DNA of 64,000 nt, from positions 21,970,501 to 22,034,500 of the forward strand of contig AP031356.1 in the NCBI GenBank assembly GCA_037833965.1, written 5' to 3'. A model generated the notes under the pieces. The model was not told the origin of the DNA. It saw only the letters and a program-made list of their open reading frames with translations, and made no database searches. How positions within the stretch are numbered: position 1 is the stretch's first letter; each line of letters starts with the position of its first letter. Shown here piece by piece: positions 21,130 through 46,030 of the stretch. Position numbers and translations under genes: made by a program. The stretch comes from Marchantia polymorpha subsp. ruderalis (Eukaryota; Streptophyta; Marchantiopsida; Marchantiales; Marchantiaceae).

Positions 21130-21720
21130 TTTGGCATCAGAAGATATTGAGGCCTGATAATCCTTGCCCAAAGTCTGATTTGAGAAGAGCTTGAAACAAC
21201 ACTTCAGAATCTGCTTGAAGAAGATATGACTTTCAGCACAAACTTTGAATTGGAGCTCAAATTTATTACCATTCCATGAAGTAATTACTACGTAAACTAT
21301 TCACTTCGTTCAAGTAAAGAATTGTGAAGATTTAACATAAAAAATAATAACTTTTATCATCTAAGAATATCTGTAATGTACATTTATTATTTTACATTTA
21401 TCTGTAATGTAAAATTTTTATTATTTATGAATTTATATAAAATATTTTTCTGAAATATTAATAATTTGTAATATCTATGAATCTTTATAATCTTGATTTG
21501 TGAAAAAATAATAAATATTATTATCCATGAATCTCTATAATCTATATTCTTGAAAAATTAATAATTTGTAGTATCTATGAATATGTATAATCTATATTTT
21601 TGAAAAATTACAAGTTTGTATTATGTATGAACCTTATTATCTAGACTCGTGAAAATTATTATTTTTTATCATTTATGAGTCTTATTAATATATATTTTTG
21701 AATAATAATAATAAACATTT
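21130..21720 (+). repeat. Dispersed repeat copy with ~50-bp tandem tail
   Basis: The segment shares long collinear similarity with the reverse strand of 46620-46910. Shared pieces include TTCAGAATCTGCT, GATGACTTT or its variant, and TGGAGCTCAA. The 3' part (about 21455-21710) is about five imperfect 50-bp units built around TCTATGAATCT and ATAATCTATATT. The other copy has the first unit only. The TATA-containing, LTR-like structure suggests a solo LTR of an unnamed element, but I cannot classify it. Confidence 0.6.
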
Positions 21721-23962: not shown

Positions 23963-24029
23963 AATGTAATTCCAAATTATATAATATGAGTAGTGATACC
24001 ATACTATACATTTTGGAAATGTGTCATGT

Positions 24030-24960
24030 GTATCGACGTTGGTGTCGATTTGAATTCAGACACTTTAGATTTGAGTTTGAGCGGAAGACTGGTGAAAGTC
24101 TTCGGGAGGCATACACTCGTATGCGGCGGTTGATCTCAGTTACTCACGGTGTAACTGAGGCGCATGCGGTCCAGTATTGGTACAGTATACTGGACAGAGA
24201 GCTACGGCGGAGGGTTCGGGATGCTACCCTCTTGAGCGATGCGTCACCGACATTGCCCTATGTGTTTGCTCTTTTTGAGAAGATTGAGCTTAACATAGTG
24301 GAGGAGAGAGCGGTGACTTCTTCATTCGCTAAAGACGCAGCCACTACTTCTCGTGTCCCGTAGAGCACGGCACAGTCTAGACCCTTTGGTGGTGGGGGTC
24401 GCGGAGCGCAGACACGACACCAGACGGCCGCTAGAGATACAAGAGCACGTGCACTAGTGCCGTCGTTTGCTGGCCAGCAGCAGGGATCAGCATGTTGAAC
24501 ATGTGGAGGGGATCATCTCCGGAGAGATTGTACAGGAGGCCGGAGGTCGGAGTTCACAGGCCAGACCCCAATCAGCACAGGTGGTGTGTGACCATTGTGG
24601 TCGAGCAAGTCATACTCAAGATCAGTGTTTTGACCTTCATCCAGAGTTGACATCTGGTGGTAGAGGTCGTGGTGGTGATGCTTCCCGAGGCCGAGGTGGC
24701 CGTGCTGGTAGAGATGATCGAGGTGCCGGTGTAGTTGGACGCCCTGTAGCGAGTGCTACTTCGGCCACAGAGAGCGCGATGGTTGCCCGGATTGAGCAAT
24801 TGGAGCAGAGTCTCGATGCTATGGCGAGTTCTGGGGCGAGCACTTCCATCTCTTACGAGGAAGAGGATTTCCCTTATTTAGCGAGTGCAGCACAGGTGAA
24901 GGCATCGGTTGCAGTGACTAGAGGTGCAGCTCGAGCTCTAGAGCCACGCGGGGCAACATG
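24030..24960 (+). mobile_element. Gypsy part: gag with CCHC zinc knuckle
   Basis: The retrotransposon capsid-type segment contains ESLREAYTRMRRLI and a W-Y-S-I-L-D-R-E-L-R run. A downstream CDHCGRASHTQDQC zinc knuckle (near 24590-24630) sits in a Gly/Arg-rich stretch typical of nucleocapsid. The gag start is fused to LTR-derived sequence. Confidence 0.8.
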
Positions 24961-25399
24961 AGAGTTGGACCCTCAGAGGGGTGAGGGTGGACGTCAGGCC
25001 AGACTTCCCAAGTCGTTTTTGTTGTCAGAGGTGGGCAGGACTTCATCCATGAGACCTGTACCACCTAGTGACCTTAGTGGGAGGACTGAGACATCTACGT
25101 CACGTGTTGTGGACACGGACACACCATCTAGTGCAGTGACGCGGATGGCTAGCTTAGTGATGAGATCTTCACTATTTTCAGCTACGGAGCTGATAGACTA
25201 TGGGATTGACTTGGCTCGGGTGTTTCGTTCAGCAGCCAAGTTGTGCGAACGTGGGAGTGTCACTGCTACGAGTGCCGAGATAGGCAAGGCTGTTGTTGAG
25301 GAGCTATCCTCTACGACTACATTGAGCGATGAGTCGACATGGCAGGCGGCAGCGGCGCGGATGGAGTTCTTACTAGCCCGACCAGCCATCGATCGTGAG

Positions 25400-25810
25400 A
25401 GGGTCGTCCCTGGTGTGTGTATGGTGGACAACCGGAGTGGTGTATTTTGTTTGGTGAGTGCTACAGGGCAGGTGTATGTCCCAACCAAAGTGTTGCTCGA
25501 TTCTGGTGCACAGCCCTTGATGTTGGGCAAGACAGCCTGCATTAGTTTGGGAGTTCGGAGGTCCGAGTTGGAGCCTTGTCCGTTCCAGATTCAGACATCA
25601 CTCGGTGGCACAAGCGATATGTCTTACATGATGACCAGAGAGCGCATATCAGTGCAGTTGAGGCATGATCATGCTCAAGATAGCTTGCAGTTTGGAGTTC
25701 GTGCGGTGATTACATCAGCAAAGTCATACAATGTGCTTGTTGGTGGAGCCGTGTTATATCCAATGGATTTTTGGATGGACTGCTGGACGAAGACCGCTGC
25801 CTATTGTCCT
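25400..25810 (+). mobile_element. Gypsy part: aspartic protease
   Basis: VLLDSGAQPLMLGK (near 25492-25530) is the retropepsin active-site strand with its D-S-G triad. The N-terminal strand (VYVPTKVLLDSG) and the later AKSYNVLVGGAVLYPMDF segment match Ty3-type proteases. Confidence 0.82.
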
Positions 25811-26233
25811 GGTTGACAGTCCGGAAATGGACGAATGAGCGAGCTGCCTGTGAGATTTATTTCTCGGGATCGACCTCTGGGATCTTGTCATGCGGTTTTA
25901 GCCTCCGTTGCGAGTTTCAGTGGAGTGCTTACATGGCCTGATGACTTGTTGGAGGGGAACAAGTCAGCCGACGATACTCCAGTTTATGAGAAGGTGGAGG
26001 AGATTGTGAGCCTCGCGGCGACAGTGTCTTCATCTTTGGATGTGCTACTTTGGAGTTCTTGCCATGCATTACAGCTGGAGGCTGATAGGTTGGTGAAGAA
26101 GGCTTAGAGTGAGGCCTCTTTACCAGTAGAGGCAGAGCAAGTCTCAGGTGGTCGGCTAGTATGTGGTCCTAGCACGCTATTACCATTAGTTACTACACTT
26201 ATTGTATGGCAGTATTCCCCAGAGGGTGTTTGT

Positions 26234-27190
26234 TTGCTGGATCTTTTTGCAGCGATCAGCACGGGTTTGGCTGCAGTGTTGCAGTTAGATATTCTTGTAC
26301 GTAGATACTTGTACGTAAAGAAGGACGAGACGGCACGTCGAGTTTCTTCACGACATGTTACACAGTTGATGCAACGTTTTCCTTTGTTGTTGCCGCGATT
26401 AGCTGTTCGAGGATACAAGAAGGCGTTGCCTTCAGACATTTCATTGTTGGGAGCGCCAGACCTTGATCAAGTTGGACATATCAATTTGGTGATTGCGGGA
26501 TGGCCATGTCTAGGGCACACACGCGCTGGGCATGGAGCAGGGTTGCATGACCCCAGATCTCAGATGTTTTGGGAGATGCTACGAGTGTTACGTTATCTCC
26601 AAGAGCAGCAGACACGTTCTCTAGCATACATTCTAGAGAACGTACCATTGTTGGGTGACACTCGGGCTCAGTTGATGACGAGTGTCCATGAGGTCAGGGC
26701 ATGGATTGGATCAGCAGTGTTGTTGGATGCTGCGAGAGTTGGTTCACGTGCTCATTGTGCACGTTTATGGTGGACCAACCTTGTGTCACGAGAGATATTG
26801 CATCATGCGTATGATTCTGTGCATCGCGATCCTACACTCACCGTTGATAGGATCTTGGATGTCTCTCGATACTCTCAGGTGATGAGAGTTGCTGACAGCT
26901 CACCTATGGCGTTCGTGAACCGCGTAGGTCAACCTTGGATGGCTTTACCTACGTTAGTCAGTTATCCGGCATCACATGCATATCGTGATGGTGGACATGG
27001 ATTACTGTGGGACAGTACCGTACATCAATTGGTGGAGCCCAACGCCGACGAAAGAGAGCGTGCGATGGAATTTATGACAGGTGTGACCGCGGTTTCTTCA
27101 GTTTCAGAGGCGTCACGTCGTCAGGTTTTAGGTTAGGCTATGGACCTGAACTGCTTGACATGGATTGTGAGCTTGGGCTTAGCCGAGCAA
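26234..27190 (+). mobile_element. Gypsy part: DNMT3-like cytosine-C5 methyltransferase domain
   Basis: The C5-methyltransferase motifs occur in family order. Motif I is LDLFAAISTGLAAVLQ (26237 on), the AdoMet-binding loop. Motif IV is LVIAGWPCLGHTRAG with the catalytic Pro-Cys (26504-26509). Then comes GLHDPRSQMFWEMLRVL, and motif VI YILENVPLL (ENV at 26636-26644). Motif VIII-like GSRAHCARLWWTNL follows, with a late SEASRRQVLG and MDLN motif X-like end. The spacing, the TGL in motif I and the W-x-N-L after motif VIII are closer to DNMT3/DRM than to DNMT1. It lies between protease and RT in the same strand and composition, so it is part of the element and not a host gene hit by insertion. The known reaction transfers methyl from AdoMet to cytosine C5. 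Confidence 0.85.
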
Positions 27191-27519
27191 CGCCGTTTGC
27201 ACATTGATTTGGTGGTTGTTACACCACTTGTTAGCTCATTGCCTACCGGGACGGTAGTGGCAATGGCTGGGGGCAACAGGCGAGATATTTGTCATCCTTG
27301 GAGTTCATGGGATGTGACGAGAGGACTTGCTAGAGTGACCGCCCATGCAGTTGGAGATGTTGGTCACGTGGAGGTTGCTAGGAAGGAGAGTACGGAGAGC
27401 CCTTCTTTGGAGAATGTGGCATAACAACCAGTGACAGTATCGCTTCCCTCTTGTGTGTCCATGGAGGAGTAGTGGAAGCCATCCATTGGTTCTTAGATCA
27501 CCGGAGGAGAGAGGCGATG

Positions 27520-28890
27520 GTTGACACAATTCCTACGTGACTATAGGAGTTGTTTTGTCTTCAGTATGAATGAGTTGGGTACTTTGATTGGATCCGACAT
27601 ACGGATAGAGTTGGCTAGTGATACGCCAATCTTCTGTCGTCCCTATCGATATAGGGATATGGAAAGGGACTTGATTCGGAGTCGGACGTTGGAGTTATTT
27701 GAGGCTGGGTTAGTGGAGTTGTTGCATGGTGAGTATGCTTCAGCCACTGTTATGCCGGCGAAGAAGTATGTACATGGCAACTACACGGATAGGCGCATGT
27801 GTGGAAATTACCGTCCTATCAATCGGCAGACGAAGGCCGATAAGTATGACATGCCTACACCTGAGGAGATCTTCGATGTGGTGGAACATGCGAGGATGTT
27901 TAGTACTTTGGATCTTCGAGCAGGATACCATCAGTTGCCGATTTGGGAGGAGGACAAGGTCAAGACAGCAGTTTGGGGTGTCAACTCCCACGGCAAGAAT
28001 TGTTTGTATCAATGGCGATTCTTACCCTTTGGGTTGAAGAATGCACCTGTTGAGTTCCAGAGAGTGATGGACAGGAATCTAGCGGGGTTGGATTTTGTCA
28101 GATGTTACATTGATGATAGCTTGGTGTTTAGCGACACGGTGGAGCAACACCAGACACATTTGCAGATTGTGCTTGAGCGGTTGATGGCTCATGGTTTGCG
28201 GTTACATCCTGGGAAGTGTAGGTTCTTCCAGGAGAAGGTGGAGTACTTGGGTCATGTGATCTACCCAGGTGATTTGGCAGTTCAGCAAACAAAGGTGGAT
28301 GCTATTGCGCGCATTCCTCGTCCAGTGGATGTGAGTAGAGTTCGTGCATTCATGGGTTTGGCAAACTATTACCGGAGGTATGTGAAGGGATTCAGTGCTA
28401 TAGCGAAGCCTTTGAACCAGTTGTTGAAGTCGGATCAGGGGTGGCAATGGGGAGATGAGCAGGAGAGAGCTTTTGTTGAGCTCAAGGCCAGGTTGGTGGC
28501 CGCTCCCATCTTGAGGAGACCTATCATAGGTCGTCCATACCAGTTGCACACTGATTGGAGTATGTTGGGACTTGGAGCGGTGTTGACGCAGTGTGATGAT
28601 GAGGGCAAGGAGTTTGTGGTTGCATACGCTAGTCGTTTGAACAATGCAGCAGAGTCGCGGTATAGTTCGTACGAGGGAGAGTGCTTGGCAGCGGTGTGGG
28701 CTGTGGCACACTTCAGGTGTTACTTGTCTGGTACGCAATTTACCCTTGTTACCGATCATCGTCCGCTCAAGTGGTTGATGGAGTCCTACAAGCTCACAGG
28801 GAAGCTTGCACGGTGGGCTCTCATTTTACAGGAGTACGACTTTCAGGTGGTCATAGGCCTGGAGTTGCGAACTTGGATGCCGACGGTTTG
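27520..28890 (+). mobile_element. Gypsy part: reverse transcriptase and RNase H
   Basis: RT blocks seen are CGNYRPINRQT, FSTLDLRAGYHQLPI, FLPFGLKNAPVEFQRVMD, the YIDD catalytic box (28106-28117), GLRLHPGKCRFF and FMGLANYYRRYVKGFS. RNase H follows with YQLHTDWSMLGLGAVLTQ, the SRYSSYEGECLAAVWAV segment and TDHRPLKWL. Confidence 0.93.
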
Positions 28891-28899
28891 AGTCGGAAC

Positions 28900-30290
28900 C
28901 CATGCACTAGCCAGGAGGATGACACTGGAGCTAGATGGCATGGTGAGGTTGATGAGGAGATGGTGCCCGGCTGGCATGCATCTGCCTACATGTGTTGGTT
29001 ACGTGAAGCCTCTAGCAGTGAGTACCACTTGACATCTTACTCTAGTAAGAGAGTAGATTGTCAGTCTTCGGATCCTAAGGTTGAAGATGGCGGTGTGGAT
29101 CAGCGTGATGTTCATGATGATGCGTTGGTGTTGAAATTCCTACGGACCAGTATGGTGCCAGGCACAGTGGGTGCCAAGGAGCGAGATCGTGTTCTCCAGC
29201 AGGCGAAGAGATACCGATTGAAGGGATCACATGTTCTCCGAGTGTGGGAGGACGGTAGGGTACGAGTAGTACCGCATCTAGCTCAGAGAGCACGCATTGT
29301 GAGACATGCTCATGAGGAGTTGGGACATTTTGGAGTGAAGCGTACGTACAGCTTACTCCTTGGTCAGTATTGGTGGCGTGGTATGCATACGCAAGTACAA
29401 CAGTTGGTATCACGTTGCATGGTTTGTGATCAAGTGAGGGCATCGTTCAATGCTCCGACACCAGAGTTACATCCCTTATCTATCATGGGATTGGGTTACC
29501 GTTGGAGTTTGGACTTTGCTGGACCACTACCTTTGACTACACGACATCATCGGTATGTGTTGGTGATGGTGGAGCATTTCTTCAAGTGGATTGAGTTGGT
29601 GGCATTACCTAACAAGGCGAGTGAGGGAGTAGCATATGCTTTTCTTGACAGGGTGCTTAGTCACTTTGGTGCACCAGCTGAGGTGTTGAACGATCAGGGG
29701 ATAGAGTTTCAGGTCTTGTGTGAAAAAACGCTGATTGATCACCGGACTACTTCCCGAGATCATCCAGAGGCAGATGGTTTGGCTGAGCGGATGGTACAGA
29801 TGGTGAAGAGAGCGTTGCGCAAGTATGGCCTACAGAAGGGGCATCTTGGGGACTGGGATATTCAGTTACCATGGCTGGTCATGGAATATCGATTCAGTCG
29901 TCAAGCATCCTTGGCTTCGCTTTCACCATATTTTCTATTGTACGGCCGAGATCCAGATTTGCCTACAGCAATTCGTCGTGATTCTAGCGAGGTGGTGAGC
30001 CTTGATGATCCAAATATGTGGGTGAGAGTGTGTTCTCAACGTGTAGTGCTCTTTCGGAGAGTTATGCCTGCCGCGTTTGAGAACCTTGCGATTGCTCAGC
30101 ACAATGATACGTTGCGATATGCAACCATCCGAGGAGAAGGTTATCAACCATCAATTCGTAGGTTCCGTGTGGGAGACTACCTCCTTTTTACAGCAGACTG
30201 CACCGACTACGTTGGATGTGATGGCAGGACGCACTATCTTGCGAGTGCGAGAGGTTTTACCTTATGGAGTTCTCATGTTGGATGGTCGTG
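28900..30290 (+). mobile_element. Gypsy part: integrase
   Basis: The HHCC zinc domain (H-EELGHFGVKRTY then CMVCDQ, near 29300-29430) is followed by the DDE core. WSLDFAGPLPL carries the first Asp, LNDQGIEFQ the second, and ADGLAERMVQMVKRAL the Glu. A C-terminal strand-rich region with RFRVGDYLLF follows. Confidence 0.9.
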
Positions 30291-30397
30291 AGAGTGCTGT
30301 TTGGAAGGATCATGTGCGCAACTGTGCGCCATGCCACCTCCCAAAAGTGGATGGTAATATGGACCCAAGCTTGGCGATTGTATGTGCCGGATTGAGG

Positions 30398-30538
30398 GTC
30401 ATGTTATGTGGGTCAACTTATCAGGCGGCCCATATGTTGGTGTGTGATAGGTGTTATAGAGGATGACACATGTTGTGCTTGACTCCACCTATCGATGTTG
30501 TTCCTACTGGACGGTGGGTTTGTCCTCGATGTACTTAA
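30398..30538 (+). mobile_element. Gypsy part: PHD-type zinc finger after integrase
   Basis: The Cys/His order matches a C4HC3 PHD finger: an initial Cys near MLCGST, then MLVCDRCYRG, HMLCLTPPIDVV, and the closing GRWVCPRC. In host proteins such fingers read histone H3 tails. At the C-terminus of an integrase polyprotein it could play the targeting role that chromodomains play in chromoviruses. The finger is broken here; the first zinc ligand is the least certain. Confidence 0.7.
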
Positions 30539-30699
30539 GAGGGTAGATGACTTGATCTTCACATGTTATGAATTGCAGATAGGCGACTAACGATGGGGCG
30601 ACATAGCACCCGACCTATTAGTTCGTGCACCCACGAAGGTGCATAGCATGTAGTTATAGATAGGGCTACCTGGGAGTCAGAGGGACCTGACCGCCAGCT

Positions 30700-31205
30700 A
30701 GGGGGGCGAGTTGTGATACCTTTGTGTGTGGACACTCTCGTTCCTTGTGTATATGTGTGAGTTGTGAGTAGAACATGTGAGCGATGTATGATGCATGGCG
30801 ATACCGAATCGCACGACAGCTGTCATGTGTATCGACGTTGGTGTCGATTTGAGTTCAGACACGTTAGATTTGAGTTTGAGGGGAGATATTCGTTGGGACG
30901 CCATGCACGTTGAGACGTTCTACACGTTGGGGTCGACGACCCTGAGTTATATGCGAGGCGAACTCGAAGAACTGTCAATTCTTCGAGTTGAGCCTTAGGC
31001 GTCAGGATTCTTCCCATTAGTTTCGACTCTTATTCTACCTAAGTGTAGTGAGTTTGGCTCGACTAGTGTACCTTGTGTTTTGACTATTATGATATTATGT
31101 TTTTAGTTGTGATAACTTTGTGTGTGTACATTCTCGCTCGTGTATATGTGTGAGTTGTGAATAGAGCATGTAAGCGATGCATGGCAATACCGAGTCGCAC
31201 GACAA
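30700..31205 (+). mobile_element. Gypsy part: polypurine tract and 3' LTR, partly duplicated
   Basis: AGGGGGGCGAG (30700-30710) is a polypurine tract directly before TGTGATACC at 30712, the expected LTR start. A second copy of the LTR start (TGTGATAAC) occurs at 31108. It runs for about 98 bp to 31205 before similarity ends, so the LTR length is about 396 bp if the copies are in tandem. A 64-bp block in the first copy recurs at 24027-24090. Confidence 0.75.
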
Positions 31206-31456
31206 AAGATATACTAATATTTTTAGAATATGTACTGTTTATAAAGTTTTGAAGTTCAATGTGAGTAACGGGAGCATGTCACTCGGTTATACTCTAGATA
31301 ACCTCGCCATATAATTTTATAGTGCATGAGTCGTTGCCAATTGCATCCGGTCTGTCCGTGCGTAGGTAGGACTGATGGTCATGCAGAAAAAACCAGTCCA
31401 ACACACCTGGAGTATGGTGGCGACTAGCGATCCCCTTCTCGTCCCCTGTCATCGGC

Positions 31457-31826
31457 CTAAATCTGAATCGAATCCGGTGGAAGATCTTCTAGATCTAATT
31501 TGAACAGCCGCTCGAGGCGTGCGTAAAGCTCCCCATTTGGACTGCAAGCGAGCGTGGCCAGGGCGGCAAGAAAGGCGGAACGAGAGGTTCCCTTCTTGCT
31601 CTTCGAAGGACCTCGCGAGAGCCACCCTTCCAGTTCATAAATGCGCCGCGTGATCGCTTCCGGGTCTCCGTGGGACAAGCACACGAATCTGCCCGCCAGA
31701 CGATCCCGCCGTTGAGGAGTATCTCAGTGAAATCGTCCGTCTCACAAATTTGGGAGTCGTCGATCGCTTGGGCGGAAAACGTCCAGCAGATGACACGAGA
31801 CCGAAGCGAATTCGATCTCCAAGCAC
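31457..31826 (-). pseudogene. Small divergent reading frame, left copy (unknown product)
   Basis: Reading away from the P450, this strand encodes VSSAGRFPPKRSTTPKF and, in another frame, EAITRRIYELEGWLSRGPSK, AALATLA and LDLEDLP. Equivalent stretches occur in the right arm (SSSGRFSPKWSTT, KAITRRIYELEG, RLDLRDLP). Partial protein-level agreement between old duplicates hints that it once coded. The frame change between the two halves suggests this copy is broken or spliced. I recognise no family. Confidence 0.4.
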
Positions 31827-31966
31827 CGAAACCTTTTTTTATCTAACAGACGTAGCTGACATTATGAACGGAGCCCGTGAAAAAGTTCACTGATTTCTTG
31901 CAGCCCAACACAATTCGCGCGCAGCGGGACTGTTGCAAATGAAATTTATGGGAAGATAAGGAACGT

Positions 31967-31991
31967 GAAGTGTCATGATTCATGACACTTC
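31967..31991. repeat. Short inverted repeat in P450 copy A upstream region
   Basis: GAAGTGTCATGA, one T, then its exact reverse complement. Close sequence recurs in the right arm inside the 152-bp duplication at 45026-45329, where a different 16-bp-arm hairpin dominates. Confidence 0.75.
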
Positions 31992-33247
31992 GGTTCATTC
32001 ATACATGACTCATGAATGAACTTCACTGGAATATTAAATGAATGGAAGACGGCATTGCGTAAGTGGAACCTGCTAAGGAGCAGAAGAACGAGCAGACCGG
32101 CTGTCGTAATGTGAAAGAGTCTGCAAAACGGACGATCGTTACGTCGCGAGAAAGTCTTCCTGCAAGCATAAACTCATTGTCAATCCATAAGAGTCACATT
32201 TCCGTCATTTAGACTTGGCATCTTCATCAGTTGCTATCGAGTGGAAAGGTTTCTTTCTGTTCTAGACCGCTAGGGGCTGAGGCTATCTCGAACTCCGACG
32301 AGCCCAGGTGGAAACGAAGGTTCTTGATCGAGAAGCCGATGACGTTCATGGCGGAGGAAGATTTACAGAAAAGATCGTTCATCTCGAATCCGTGGAGTCT
32401 ACGTCGTGCAGCATAAAACCCTTGATTTCCAGCTGCTGCTACTCCATTCCACGCCGATATTGATTTAGAACTCTGCTTTAGTCACCCAGTCACACCAGAT
32501 TCTTGGTTATCAAAAATCTTCAGATCTGTGATGCCGATTGGGCAAGTCCACTAGAAGAACTTGAACCCACTTCAAAACTCGTCGAAACTTTTGAGATTTT
32601 TGCCAGACATGGAGATTTTACCGCTGGTATTCACTGCGATCGCAACGGTGGGTTTGTACGCTTGCTTCTATCGATGGGTTCAGCACCGGAACCTGAGAGG
32701 TCCCAGAGTATGGCCAATTCTGGGAAGTGTTCTCGACGTGAGCAGAAATCACTGGCGCATGCACGACTACGCCTATGATTACTGCAAGAAGTATTATCCG
32801 ACATACGTCACGAAAATGCCTGGATTCAATTACGTCGTGACAGTAGATCCTGCGAACGTCGAACACGTGTTGAAGACCAATTTCAGTAACTACGATAAGG
32901 TACGCACGCACCCACACGCCCTCGACGTCAGCTCGTCAGCTCATCAGCTCCAAATCCAATTCTCCCGTTTACTTTGCCTTCTCTCGTCCGTGAAGACTCC
33001 ATGCGAGCGTGTGAGCTCCTGGAATATTCCTAGGACTTCTTGCTTTTCATTTCCTGTAGAAGTACGACGATACATGAATTCTCTTGATTCTTCAGTTTCC
33101 GAACACGTGACATATACTTCGTAGGTCTCGAATTCTTCACAATATTTTACCCTTGCCCTTCAATGGTCAACCCCAGATGCAGATGGAGTAGCGCCCCGCC
33201 GCAGATAGTGATTAATCTGGACGATAAATGATTGTCGATGCGAGCGA

Positions 33248-44499: not shown

Positions 44500-45025
44500 G
44501 TCTGGCAAAAATCTCGAGAGTTTGAAGTGGGTTCAAGTACTTCTAGTGGACTTGCCTAATCGGCATCAATCTGAAGATTTTCGATAACCGAGATTTTGGT
44601 GTGACTGGGTGACTAAACTAGAGTTCTGAATTGTTATCGGCGTGGAATGCAGTAGCAACAGCTGGAACTCAAGGCTTTTATGCTGCACGACGGAGTCTCC
44701 ACGAATCCGACATGAACGATCTTCTCTGTTAATCTTCCTCCCCAATCAACTTTTTCGGCTTCTGGGTCAACAACCTGGGCTCCTCTGGGGTTCGAGATAT
44801 TCTCAGCCCCCGCGCGGTCTAGATCAGAAACCCAACTCGATAGCTAGTGATGAAGATGCCGAGTCTAAATGACGGATATGTGACTCTAGTGCGTTGACAG
44901 TGAATTTATAATTGCAGGAAGACTTTCTCGCGTCGTATCGATCGTCCGTTCTGCAGACTCTCTCACATCACGACAGCCGGTCTGCTCGTTCTTCTGCTCC
45001 TTAGAAATTTCCACTTACACAATTC

Positions 45026-45329
45026 CGTCTTCCATTCACTTACTATTCCAGCTCAGAGTCAGTTCAGTCATTCATGAGTCATGTTACATGACTCATGAAT
45101 GAATGAATCGCAGAGTCATGTTTCATGACACTTAGGTCTTCACGTTCCTTCCCTGCCCATAAATTTCATTGGCACCACGTCTTCCATTCACTTACTATTC
45201 CAGCTCAGAGTCAGTTCAGTCATTCATGAGTCATGTTACATGACTCATGAATGAATGAATCGCAGTGTCATGTTTCATGACACTTAGGTCTTCACGTTCC
45301 TTCCCTGCCCATAAATTTCATTGGCACCA
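45026..45329. repeat. 152-bp tandem duplication upstream of P450 copy B
   Basis: Two nearly identical units (45026-45177 and 45178-45329) each carry the hairpin TCATTCATGAGTCATG, TTA, then its reverse complement (45068-45102 in unit 1). Copy A has a single diverged equivalent near 31960-32060. It lies 0.5-0.8 kb upstream of the start codon. Confidence 0.9.
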
Positions 45330-45461
45330 CCCCCGCTGCGCCAGCATCGTGTTGGGCTGCAAGAAATCAGTGAACTTTTTCACCGGCTCCGTCCGTAATG
45401 TCAGCGACGTCTGTTAGATGAAAAAGGTTCCGGTGCTTGGAGATCGAATTTGCTTCGGTTG

Positions 45462-45520
45462 TCTCGTGTCATCAGACAGAAGATGACAGAAGATGACACG
45501 AGACTCTCGTGTCATCTTCT
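45462..45520. repeat. Triple alternating inverted repeat upstream of P450 copy B
   Basis: TCTCGTGTCATC (45462-45473) is followed by an inverted partner and then by AGAAGATGACACGAGA (45488-45503), one C, and its exact reverse complement (45505-45520). The left arm has only one plain copy of this motif (31785-31800). Confidence 0.9.
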
Positions 45521-46030
45521 GGACGTTTTTCGCCCAAGTGGTCGACTACTTCCAATTTTGTGAGACGGAAGATTTCACGAGGACTTCGTCGTGGTAATCT
45601 TCGACGGCGGAATCGTCTGACGGGCACATTCGTGAGCGTGACCGTCGAGTCACGGCCCCATGTCCGTGACTCGACGGTCGCAAGGAGACCGAAAGCGATC
45701 ACGCGACGCATTTATGAACTGGAAGGGCTGCTCTCGCGAGCTCCATCGAAGCGCAAGAGGGGAGCCTCTCGTTCCCCTGTTGCCGCACTGGCCACGCTAG
45801 CAGTCCAAATGGGGACCGTTACGCACACGCAGACTGAACCGGGCCTAAAGCGCCGGTTCAGATTGGATCTACGGGATCTTCCGCCACCGTCTCTCCAGGT
45901 TTGTTGGTCTGGTGGTTTCTGCATGACCGTGAGTCCAAAACCCGACGGACGCACGGACAGACCGGATGTAACTACGCAGCAAGGCATCGGCCATACAAAT
46001 TTTCCCAATCCTGTCTTCCCATTTTTCTGA
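45509..46030 (+). CDS. Small divergent reading frame, right copy (unknown product)
   Basis: This is an Arg-rich open frame of up to 173 codons running away from P450 copy B. It contains SSSGRFSPKWSTTSNFVRRK, then AITRRIYELEGLLSRAPSKR and RFRLDLRDLPPPSLQ. These blocks reappear in the left arm at 31457-31826, which is the only support that it codes. The frame includes the recently gained hairpin at 45640-45679. No family is recognised, and it may be a degraded exon. Confidence 0.35.
   Translation: MSSSGRFSPKWSTTSNFVRRKISRGLRRGNLRRRNRLTGTFVSVTVESRPHVRDSTVARRPKAITRRIYELEGLLSRAPSKRKRGASRSPVAALATLAVQMGTVTHTQTEPGLKRRFRLDLRDLPPPSLQVCWSGGFCMTVSPKPDGRTDRPDVTTQQGIGHTNFPNPVFPFF
45640..45679. repeat. Perfect inverted repeat, 16-bp arms, absent from left arm
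   Basis: GACCGTCGAGTCACGG (45640-45655), an 8-nt loop, then its exact reverse complement (45664-45679). The aligned left arm (around 31670-31700) lacks it. Confidence 0.9.

Follow-up and report, generated by a model that had tools for sequence, protein, structure and literature searches.

DNA methylation is usually seen as a plant's weapon against transposons, and a locus in the liverwort Marchantia polymorpha subsp. ruderalis raises the question of whether some of these parasites may write that silencing mark themselves. The locus lies in a stretch of 64,000 nucleotides (contig AP031356.1, positions 21,970,501 to 22,034,500; hereafter the window), where the original prediction, made from the sequence alone, placed a long terminal repeat (LTR) retrotransposon whose own DNMT3-like cytosine methyltransferase separates protease from reverse transcriptase (RT). 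We find that the window holds a decayed copy of a Ty3/Gypsy-type retrotransposon family in which the methyltransferase domain recurs at the same place from copy to copy. We are highly confident of the identity and layout of this element, and we consider it likely that the family acquired its DNMT3 methyltransferase permanently, with the packaging, targeting and complementary DNA (cDNA) steps proposed below.

The methyltransferase is where it had been predicted: a frame of 300 amino acids at 26234-27136 on the + strand gives a significant match to the Pfam profile DNA_methylase (PF00145, E = 1.1e-6, over the curated cut-off) in the profile search suggested with the prediction, and its best solved-structure matches are DNMT3A and DNMT3B (best E = 2.3e-6). 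For domains of the METHYLTRANSFERASE type, a family profile searched against PDB put DNMT3A first of the families named (1.2e-13), followed by 4onj (3.7e-7, named only 'DNA methyltransferase', which we take to be a plant DRM), HaeIII (5.2e-5), DRM2 chains (3.2e-4) and HhaI (1.3e-3), and no DNMT1- or CMT-named chain was present among the 48 PDB chains at E <= 0.01. An AlphaFold model of a relative, P0001 (mean pLDDT 70.4, pTM 0.75), gave 134 structure matches at E <= 0.001, the best 50 of which are all DNMT3, with TM-scores by target of up to 0.77. By these sequence and fold match scores, the domain appears nearer to DNMT3 than to DRM, DNMT1, CMT, DNMT2 or bacterial enzymes. In an alignment of 25 relatives the motif order I-IV-VI-VIII-X is unrearranged and the catalytic Cys invariant, with Pro and ENV nearly so, and the five motifs tested (I, PCQ, ENV, VIII and X) are intact in all 20 open-frame genome copies described below; PF00145 matches the first open reading frame (ORF1) of one of these, the intact copy L021, at 1.4e-9. 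The element domain likely acts as a cytosine DNA methyltransferase. The order of motifs claimed for the window holds across these relatives, and the window copy itself has substitutions in motifs I and IV and a stop that cuts its last motif.

The genome searched comprises 241.5 Mb in 9 contigs, with the window on contig 7; only the best candidates were scored, and the counts of scored matches are lower bounds. The window methyltransferase matched 150 sites at 82-100% identity, itself included (best 150 of 500 candidates), and a PF00145 profile search matched 123 (best 123 of 290), a few of them host genes. Twenty copies were fetched, a biased sample chosen for a frame open over 1351-1365 codons across the domain. 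ORF1, open over that length in 20/20 copies by selection, encodes gag, protease and DNMT3; ORF2, in the same frame and open over 1042-1045 codons in 15 of the 20, encodes RT, RNase H, a DDE integrase and a PHD finger. This order of RT, RNase H and DDE integrase (rve in ORF2 of L021) is that of Ty3/Gypsy elements. The PHD finger (PF00628) scores 9.4e-11 in ORF2 of L021, and its C4HC3 pattern is present in 15/15 open ORF2s. In the intact ORF1 of L021 the methyltransferase alone was recognised, with no gag or protease Pfam match at E <= 0.01; gag and protease are assigned there from motifs and relatives, the protease from a DSGAQP motif, found in 20/20 copies, and from relatives among which P0113 matches PF13975 at 4.2e-7, over the cut-off, and P0145 has a protease match at 5.2e-5, under the curated cut-off. 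Element ORF1 is up to 96.6% identical to database proteins of M. polymorpha. Many copies are nearly identical with both ORFs open, and we infer that the family is still active or was so until recently. The predicted position between protease and RT is confirmed, with the correction that the domain belongs to the gag-protease ORF, ahead of a leaky-type stop.

As a less biased check for copies lacking the domain, integrase-anchored matches were collected (best 119 of 3370 candidates scored; 118 without the window). Set against the sites from the two methyltransferase searches, 92/118 of these have a methyltransferase 1.5-6.5 kb upstream on the same strand, so that other copies hold the domain at the same place, as the original prediction required. 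Thirteen of the 26 without a listed DNMT were sampled: in four the methyltransferase is present where expected, although a deletion has left L059 with just the later part of it, and a fifth has gag-protease sequence there.

The window copy is decayed and internally deleted, and its parts are as follows.

24022..31204, + strand: whole element, ending in TGTC on the left and GACA on the right (from repeats and ends).
24022..24085, + strand: left terminal repeat A1, first 64 nucleotides only, 61/64 identical to 30821-30884.
24073..24961, + strand: gag remnant in two frames, with stops; DNA match to intact L029 and L021 from 24073, and to the gag region of P0126.
24965..25816, + strand: aspartic protease region (DSGAQP); weak Pfam match here (E 0.06-0.11), stronger in P0113 and P0145.
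26234..27136, + strand: DNMT3-like C5-cytosine methyltransferase, a broken copy (open frame, PF00145 and PDB matches as above).
27422..27424, + strand: end of ORF1, TAA CAACCA in the window and TAG CAACCA/CAACTA in the 20 fetched copies.
27521..28891, + strand: RT and RNase H (PF00078 3.8e-29, PF17919 1.4e-30, PF17917 4.5e-35).
28681..30291, + strand: integrase with H2C2 zinc-binding domain and DDE core, in a shifted frame (PF17921 1.1e-15, PF00665 3.4e-8).
30398..30537, + strand: what is left of the C-terminal PHD finger, interrupted at 30464 by a stop (by-eye match to intact ORF2 C-termini).
30709..30818, + strand: B1, internal copy of the right terminal repeat, 82.7% identical to B2.
30821..31104, + strand: A2, internal copy of the left terminal repeat (repeat comparison; junction CGCACGACAGCTGTCATG).
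31105..31204, + strand: B2, right terminal repeat and element end (repeats; ends as in fetched flanks).

The RT/RNase H and integrase frames follow the methyltransferase on the + strand, in keeping with the prediction that all belong to one polyprotein strand. The window copy is 91.8% identical in DNA to L029 (over 24073-31204) and 86.2% to L021 (over 24073-30828), and its flanks, AATG and AAAG, are alike at 3 of 4 bases. Its A1 is fused directly to gag coding sequence, the 5' leader and N-terminal part of gag being missing; the gag remnant holds a zinc-knuckle-like CDHCGRASHTQDQC and has no Pfam match, and the window fragment tested for the PHD remnant gave none either. In the methyltransferase, motif I reads FAAIST and motif IV PCL, where 20/20 open-frame copies have FGGIST and PCQ, and the TAG at 27134 truncates the last motif (LGQAMDLN in 20/20 open-frame copies), the remnant continuing to about 27199. 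Further stops in the methyltransferase frame lie at 24455, 24959, 25814, 26105, 27470, 27494 and 28889. With stops in gag, protease, methyltransferase and ORF2, an integrase out of frame and motifs I and IV changed, the window copy is dead, and methylation, if there is any, would have to be the work of intact copies. Elsewhere in the window, 31300-32400 and 44694-45971 form an inverted repeat whose two arms match piecewise at 71-78% identity, the first arm lying just before a candidate cytochrome P450 gene region at 32.5-35 kb; an AT-rich tandem array of ~50-bp units occupies 21340-21711.

The ends of the element are not those of an ordinary LTR retrotransposon, and here the original description holds for a retrotransposon with RT, RNase H and integrase and fails for its repeats, which are split in the plan A-coding-B-A-B. 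Fetched copies end B1-GC-A2-B2, with B1 and B2 identical over 119-120 nucleotides in 11 of the 20, identical over 85 nucleotides in L018, and 97-99.6% identical in L015, L025 and L029; no second B was present in the fetched stretch of five copies. In L027 the full A-coding-B-A-B arrangement is seen, with a full-length A1 of 293 nucleotides, A1 and A2 identical (293/293) and B1 and B2 identical (119/119). Searching the genome with A gave 40 full-length matches and one partial match (best 40 of 538 candidates scored), from which ten pairs on one strand, 5.6-12.2 kb apart, were chosen and their flanks alone fetched. All ten begin TGTCAT and end ACGACA, and eight are flanked by a perfect 4-bp target duplication; with L027 (TGTG/TGTG) this makes 9 of 11 tested, where a chance match of 4-bp flanks is expected at ~1/256 each. 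The B-A junction CGCACGACAGCTGTCATG occurs at 161 genome sites, and its reversed control at none. The left end is thus A, the right end B and the interior B-A, so that the identical terminal repeats of Ty3/Gypsy are lacking and the split repeats of DIRS-like elements are present, without the tyrosine recombinase and absence of target duplication that go with the latter. The TG..CA ends and 4-bp duplications point to DDE integration. Split repeats combined with DDE integration and target duplications separate the repeat plan from the type of recombinase.

A left boundary at about nucleotide 659 of the fetched copies was considered and rejected, as the leader varies between copies. In L021 the leader upstream of ORF1 (with upstream locus L030; C6 ~25233416-25233932, - strand) carries an antisense host-like gene piece matching Pfam Sec63 (E = 4.5e-34), presumably of BRR2/ASCC3 type. 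The leaders of L021 and L023 are alike up to a point inside this piece, and in L021 the gene-like frame continues beyond; leaders differ among other copies. Such differences suggest that the elements may capture host sequence. Tandem or nested element ends and partial elements were seen at L015, L019 and L022.

The boundary between ORF1 and ORF2 is equally regular. ORF1 ends in TAG followed by CAACCA or CAACTA in 20/20 fetched copies, and the frame continues past the TAG in the 15 copies with open ORF2. Genome-wide, 206 sites match the sequence just past the stop, 197 of them with TAG in front, and a reversed control of the post-stop pattern found 0 sites. UAG followed by CARYYA is the read-through signal of tobamoviruses. 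By analogy, most ribosomes would stop at the TAG and make Gag-protease-DNMT3, with a minority reading through into a Pol fusion; because the DNMT3 lies in ORF1 before a leaky-context TAG, it would be made at Gag dosage and packaged in the particle where cDNA is made.

Relatives of the domain extend beyond this genome, where the original prediction had proposed to look. The window domain has 111 homologues at E <= 1e-3 and P0001 has 81, searched over another length range, so the match is no accident; the named ones come from Marchantia polymorpha, M. paleacea, Riccia sorocarpa, Calypogeia fissa, four Sphagnum species and Closterium sp., the last at 43% identity over 55% of the query in the P0001 search. 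Among named matches, in a partly named and length-filtered database with the best candidates scored, there was no vascular plant, hornwort or Physcomitrium, and no K. nitens sequence was recognised among the homologue matches. Scans of viral contigs with the window methyltransferase, the family alignment and the window RT found no true relative, only one 34% match (L001), and a second alignment profile search gave 17 matches among the best 7,999 candidates, some bacterial-looking. In Sphagnum, Calypogeia, Riccia and Closterium proteins the methyltransferase adjoins protease or RT. Profile domain orders place it before RT in 21 proteins and after RT in 10 (P0176, P0178, P0179, P0184, P0189, P0190, P0195, P0197, P0200 and P0205), the second order, with the domain between RNase H and integrase in P0176, P0178, P0179, P0195 and P0197; a methyltransferase followed by integrase with no RT seen occurs in P0096, P0182, P0188, P0194 and P0203, and also in the Marchantia gene model P0175. 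Trees of RT (support 0.999, 17 sequences) and integrase (0.987, 14 sequences) keep the two orders apart, and in the methyltransferase tree proteins of the second order cluster together, along with two methyltransferase-only proteins (0.909, 80 sequences). The association of methyltransferase and retrotransposon is therefore old; the domain may have moved within the element or have been captured twice. Proteins of either order have PHD fingers, and in P0178 a Tudor-like domain (PF21743) follows the PHD finger. Annotation is affected as well: P0008, P0127, P0141 and P0173 (Marchantia, Sphagnum), named DNA (cytosine-5)-methyltransferase, are transposon proteins.

The host genome also holds a multi-exon, unrearranged DNMT3-like gene (L002, C6:12457929-12461252; match at C6:12459429), whose best PDB match is DNMT3B (8.6e-14) and which is about 32-34% identical to element domains over 120-132 amino acids among the matches listed. 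Host and element enzymes therefore coexist. The five Marchantia methyltransferases listed by Schmid et al. 2018 (PMC5784723) are a MET, two CMT and two DRM, with no DNMT3, so L002 falls outside that list; DNMT3-type enzymes in bryophytes are mentioned in a 2021 review (PMC8566409).

Evidence that the methyltransferase matters to the element comes from the ratio of nonsynonymous to synonymous substitution (dN/dS, Nei-Gojobori), estimated on copies picked for open frames, which favours low values. Comparing L021, L027 and L014 with L029, members of two subfamilies (dS about 0.29 in the domain), dN/dS of the methyltransferase is 0.10-0.12. RT-RNase H (0.06) and integrase (0.06-0.08) lie below this, protease (0.12-0.14) close to it, and the PHD end (0.15-0.18, on few changes), the protease-DNMT linker (0.17-0.24) and gag (0.19-0.20) above it; comparisons with L024 and L028 put the methyltransferase at 0.12-0.13. 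Between the window methyltransferase and L029 the ratio is 0.22, in line with the decay of the window copy. These sequence comparisons show the methyltransferase to be under purifying selection, and the enzyme is kept about as strictly as the protease. That a DNMT3 under such selection is shared by relatives in liverworts, Sphagnum and Closterium suggests that the element gains something from it.

We propose the following explanation. The internal B-A junction would supply end sequences that the transcript lacks; integrase would insert the cDNA, with the C-terminal PHD finger reading histone H3 and steering insertion; and the methyltransferase would most likely act on the freshly made cDNA or on the DNA where it inserts. 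A new copy might then enter the genome already marked, and either be silenced through the maintenance methylation of its host or go unnoticed where unmethylated DNA is sensed as foreign. The element's own cDNA may be the main target, a suggestion to which we give slightly less than even weight; it draws on the packaging expected for an ORF1 product and on what de Mendoza et al. argued for SymbioDIRS (PMC5890265).

Several observations weigh against this explanation. Two of the ten A pairs lack a target duplication, and BLAST did not find A1 in the upstream sequence (2-2.3 kb) of L020, L021, L023 and L025; A pairs do exist for L012 and L022, which have the L021 leader. Eight of the 13 sampled integrase-anchored copies have no ORF1 sequence at the expected place. 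ORF1-less derivatives thus probably exist, as possible non-autonomous partners, and the DNMT domain is the rule in the family and is not universal; at one of the eight, L058 (C9:19403150-19406896), A-repeat sequence was seen by eye close before an ORF2 open over 1140 codons. Within the L029 subfamily, domain dN/dS is 0.13-0.18, on few changes. The CpG observed/expected ratio is 0.70-0.74 in the ORFs and 0.81-0.83 in the window flanks, so slight a lowering that there is no strong scar of self-methylation. Among 123 relatives with a recognised motif IV, 10 have Glu in place of the Pro of Pro-Cys (P0048, P0113, P0115, P0117, P0176, P0179, P0184, P0188, P0201 and P0202, Closterium proteins among them), a residue unusual for an active enzyme, and activity may differ among relatives; Glu-Cys was found in 0/20 open-frame genome copies. 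The comparable domain of KnitGypsy-Dnmt3, an element of Klebsormidium nitens, was inactive in yeast, a result its authors call inconclusive (PMC5890265).

The last three of these points, the yeast result being inconclusive by its authors' own control, also favour a domain conserved without DNA methylation, as a nucleic-acid-binding or structural part of Gag-protease that keeps the methyltransferase fold; activity is read here from sequence. A mere fold would be expected to lose its catalytic loop, yet 20/20 genome copies retain motifs I, VIII and X together with PCQ and ENV, all 25 relatives share the catalytic Cys and nearly all share Pro and ENV, and dN/dS is about 0.1; we regard this alternative as rather unlikely. 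DNMT2-like enzymes, which share the fold, act on tRNA, and Gag-level packaging would place the enzyme beside genomic RNA, so that methylation of RNA (the element's genomic RNA or a primer RNA) could be its role instead. The closest families by sequence and fold are nonetheless DNMT3 DNA enzymes; a tRNA methyltransferase reached only 1.8e-3 in the family-profile PDB search and is absent from the best 50 of 134 fold matches, leaving an RNA target about as improbable as a non-methylating domain.

Two simpler readings concern the element itself. The several stops in the window copy would suit a methyltransferase that arrived in this one copy as a separate insertion, or as an unrelated pseudogene that was captured, but its presence at the same place in 20/20 chosen and 92/118 integrase-anchored copies, and beside protease or RT in Sphagnum, Calypogeia, Riccia and Closterium proteins, refutes this with near certainty. 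That the element is an ordinary LTR retrotransposon, its A-coding-B-A-B plan arising from tandem or nested copies with a common LTR, is very improbable: some loci are indeed tandem or nested (L015, L019 and L022), and A2-B2 alone resembles a 411-bp LTR with TG..CA ends, but in the 9 of 11 copies the 4-bp duplications enclose the element from A1 at its left to B2 at its right and so mark true ends, the B-GC-A junction recurs at its 161 sites, and KnitGypsy-Dnmt3 is described with the same plan (Fig. 4 legend, PMC5890265). A retrotransposon with split repeats and a DNMT3 of its own accounts better for these observations. A still broader possibility, which we hold only tentatively and think doubtful as a whole, is an old green-plant retrotransposon lineage that encodes both writer and reader, with DNMT3 at Gag level, cDNA methylated in the particle, the PHD finger choosing chromatin, and split-end replication joined to DDE integration. 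On that reading insertions would arrive pre-methylated, and the parasite, not the host alone, would decide the silencing of its copies. The split-end replication route has been thought peculiar to tyrosine-recombinase elements.

Known systems share parts of this design. DIRS, PAT and Ngaro elements have A-coding-B-A-B terminal repeats and a tyrosine recombinase; the Marchantia element shares the repeats and differs by its DDE integrase, TG..CA ends and target duplications. Animal DNMT3A and DNMT3B combine the methyltransferase with a PHD-like ADD reader, and are alike in catalytic family and fold and in encoding writer and histone reader together; in the Marchantia element, unlike these, writer and reader lie in different ORFs and the PHD is PF00628. 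Chromoviruses are Ty3/Gypsy elements with a chromodomain joined to integrase. They too have a chromatin reader at the integrase end, where the Marchantia element has a PHD finger, together with a DNA methyltransferase, instead of a chromodomain. Chromoviruses are named in PMC2774666.

Closer still are retrotransposons that carry a cytosine methyltransferase. SymbioDIRS-Dnmt3 and SymbioLINE-Dnmt of Symbiodinium do so, SymbioDIRS also with split repeats, but they use a tyrosine recombinase or a LINE endonuclease where the Marchantia element has a DDE integrase; SymbioDIRS domains are active on CG in yeast (PMC5890265), whereas the Marchantia enzyme is known from its sequence. Retrotransposon DNMT3s in streptophytes and dinoflagellates are also noted in PMC12344493, citing the 2018 paper. 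The open-access literature searched, by titles and the starts of abstracts, contains no report of a methyltransferase-bearing retrotransposon in a land plant, in line with the original prediction, though a report elsewhere is possible; passages of PMC12344493, PMC6453930, PMC5784723, PMC8566409 and PMC2774666 describe none either. With open copies beside a host DNMT3-like gene, the purpose of a retrotransposon methyltransferase, a question posed by de Mendoza et al., becomes testable in a genetic model plant.

The nearest known case is KnitGypsy-Dnmt3 (de Mendoza et al. 2018, PMC5890265). Like the Marchantia element, this retrotransposon of Klebsormidium nitens, a charophyte of the genus named in the original prediction, has Gypsy-type coding domains, an unrearranged Dnmt3 in the polyprotein under purifying selection, and, according to the text and Fig. 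4 legend of that paper, DIRS-like terminal repeats. The Marchantia element differs in its land-plant host, with 150 scored domain matches (best 150 of 500), and in the place of its DNMT3, which lies in the gag-protease ORF before a CARYYA-type TAG where KnitGypsy has it in the Pol polyprotein ORF (PMC5890265). A PHD finger ends its ORF2, a word absent from the main text of PMC5890265, and its 4-bp target duplications are an addition to the KnitGypsy-type repeat plan. With a Dnmt3 in a Gypsy polyprotein and DIRS-like repeats, the Marchantia element fits the KnitGypsy-Dnmt3 type in its layout.
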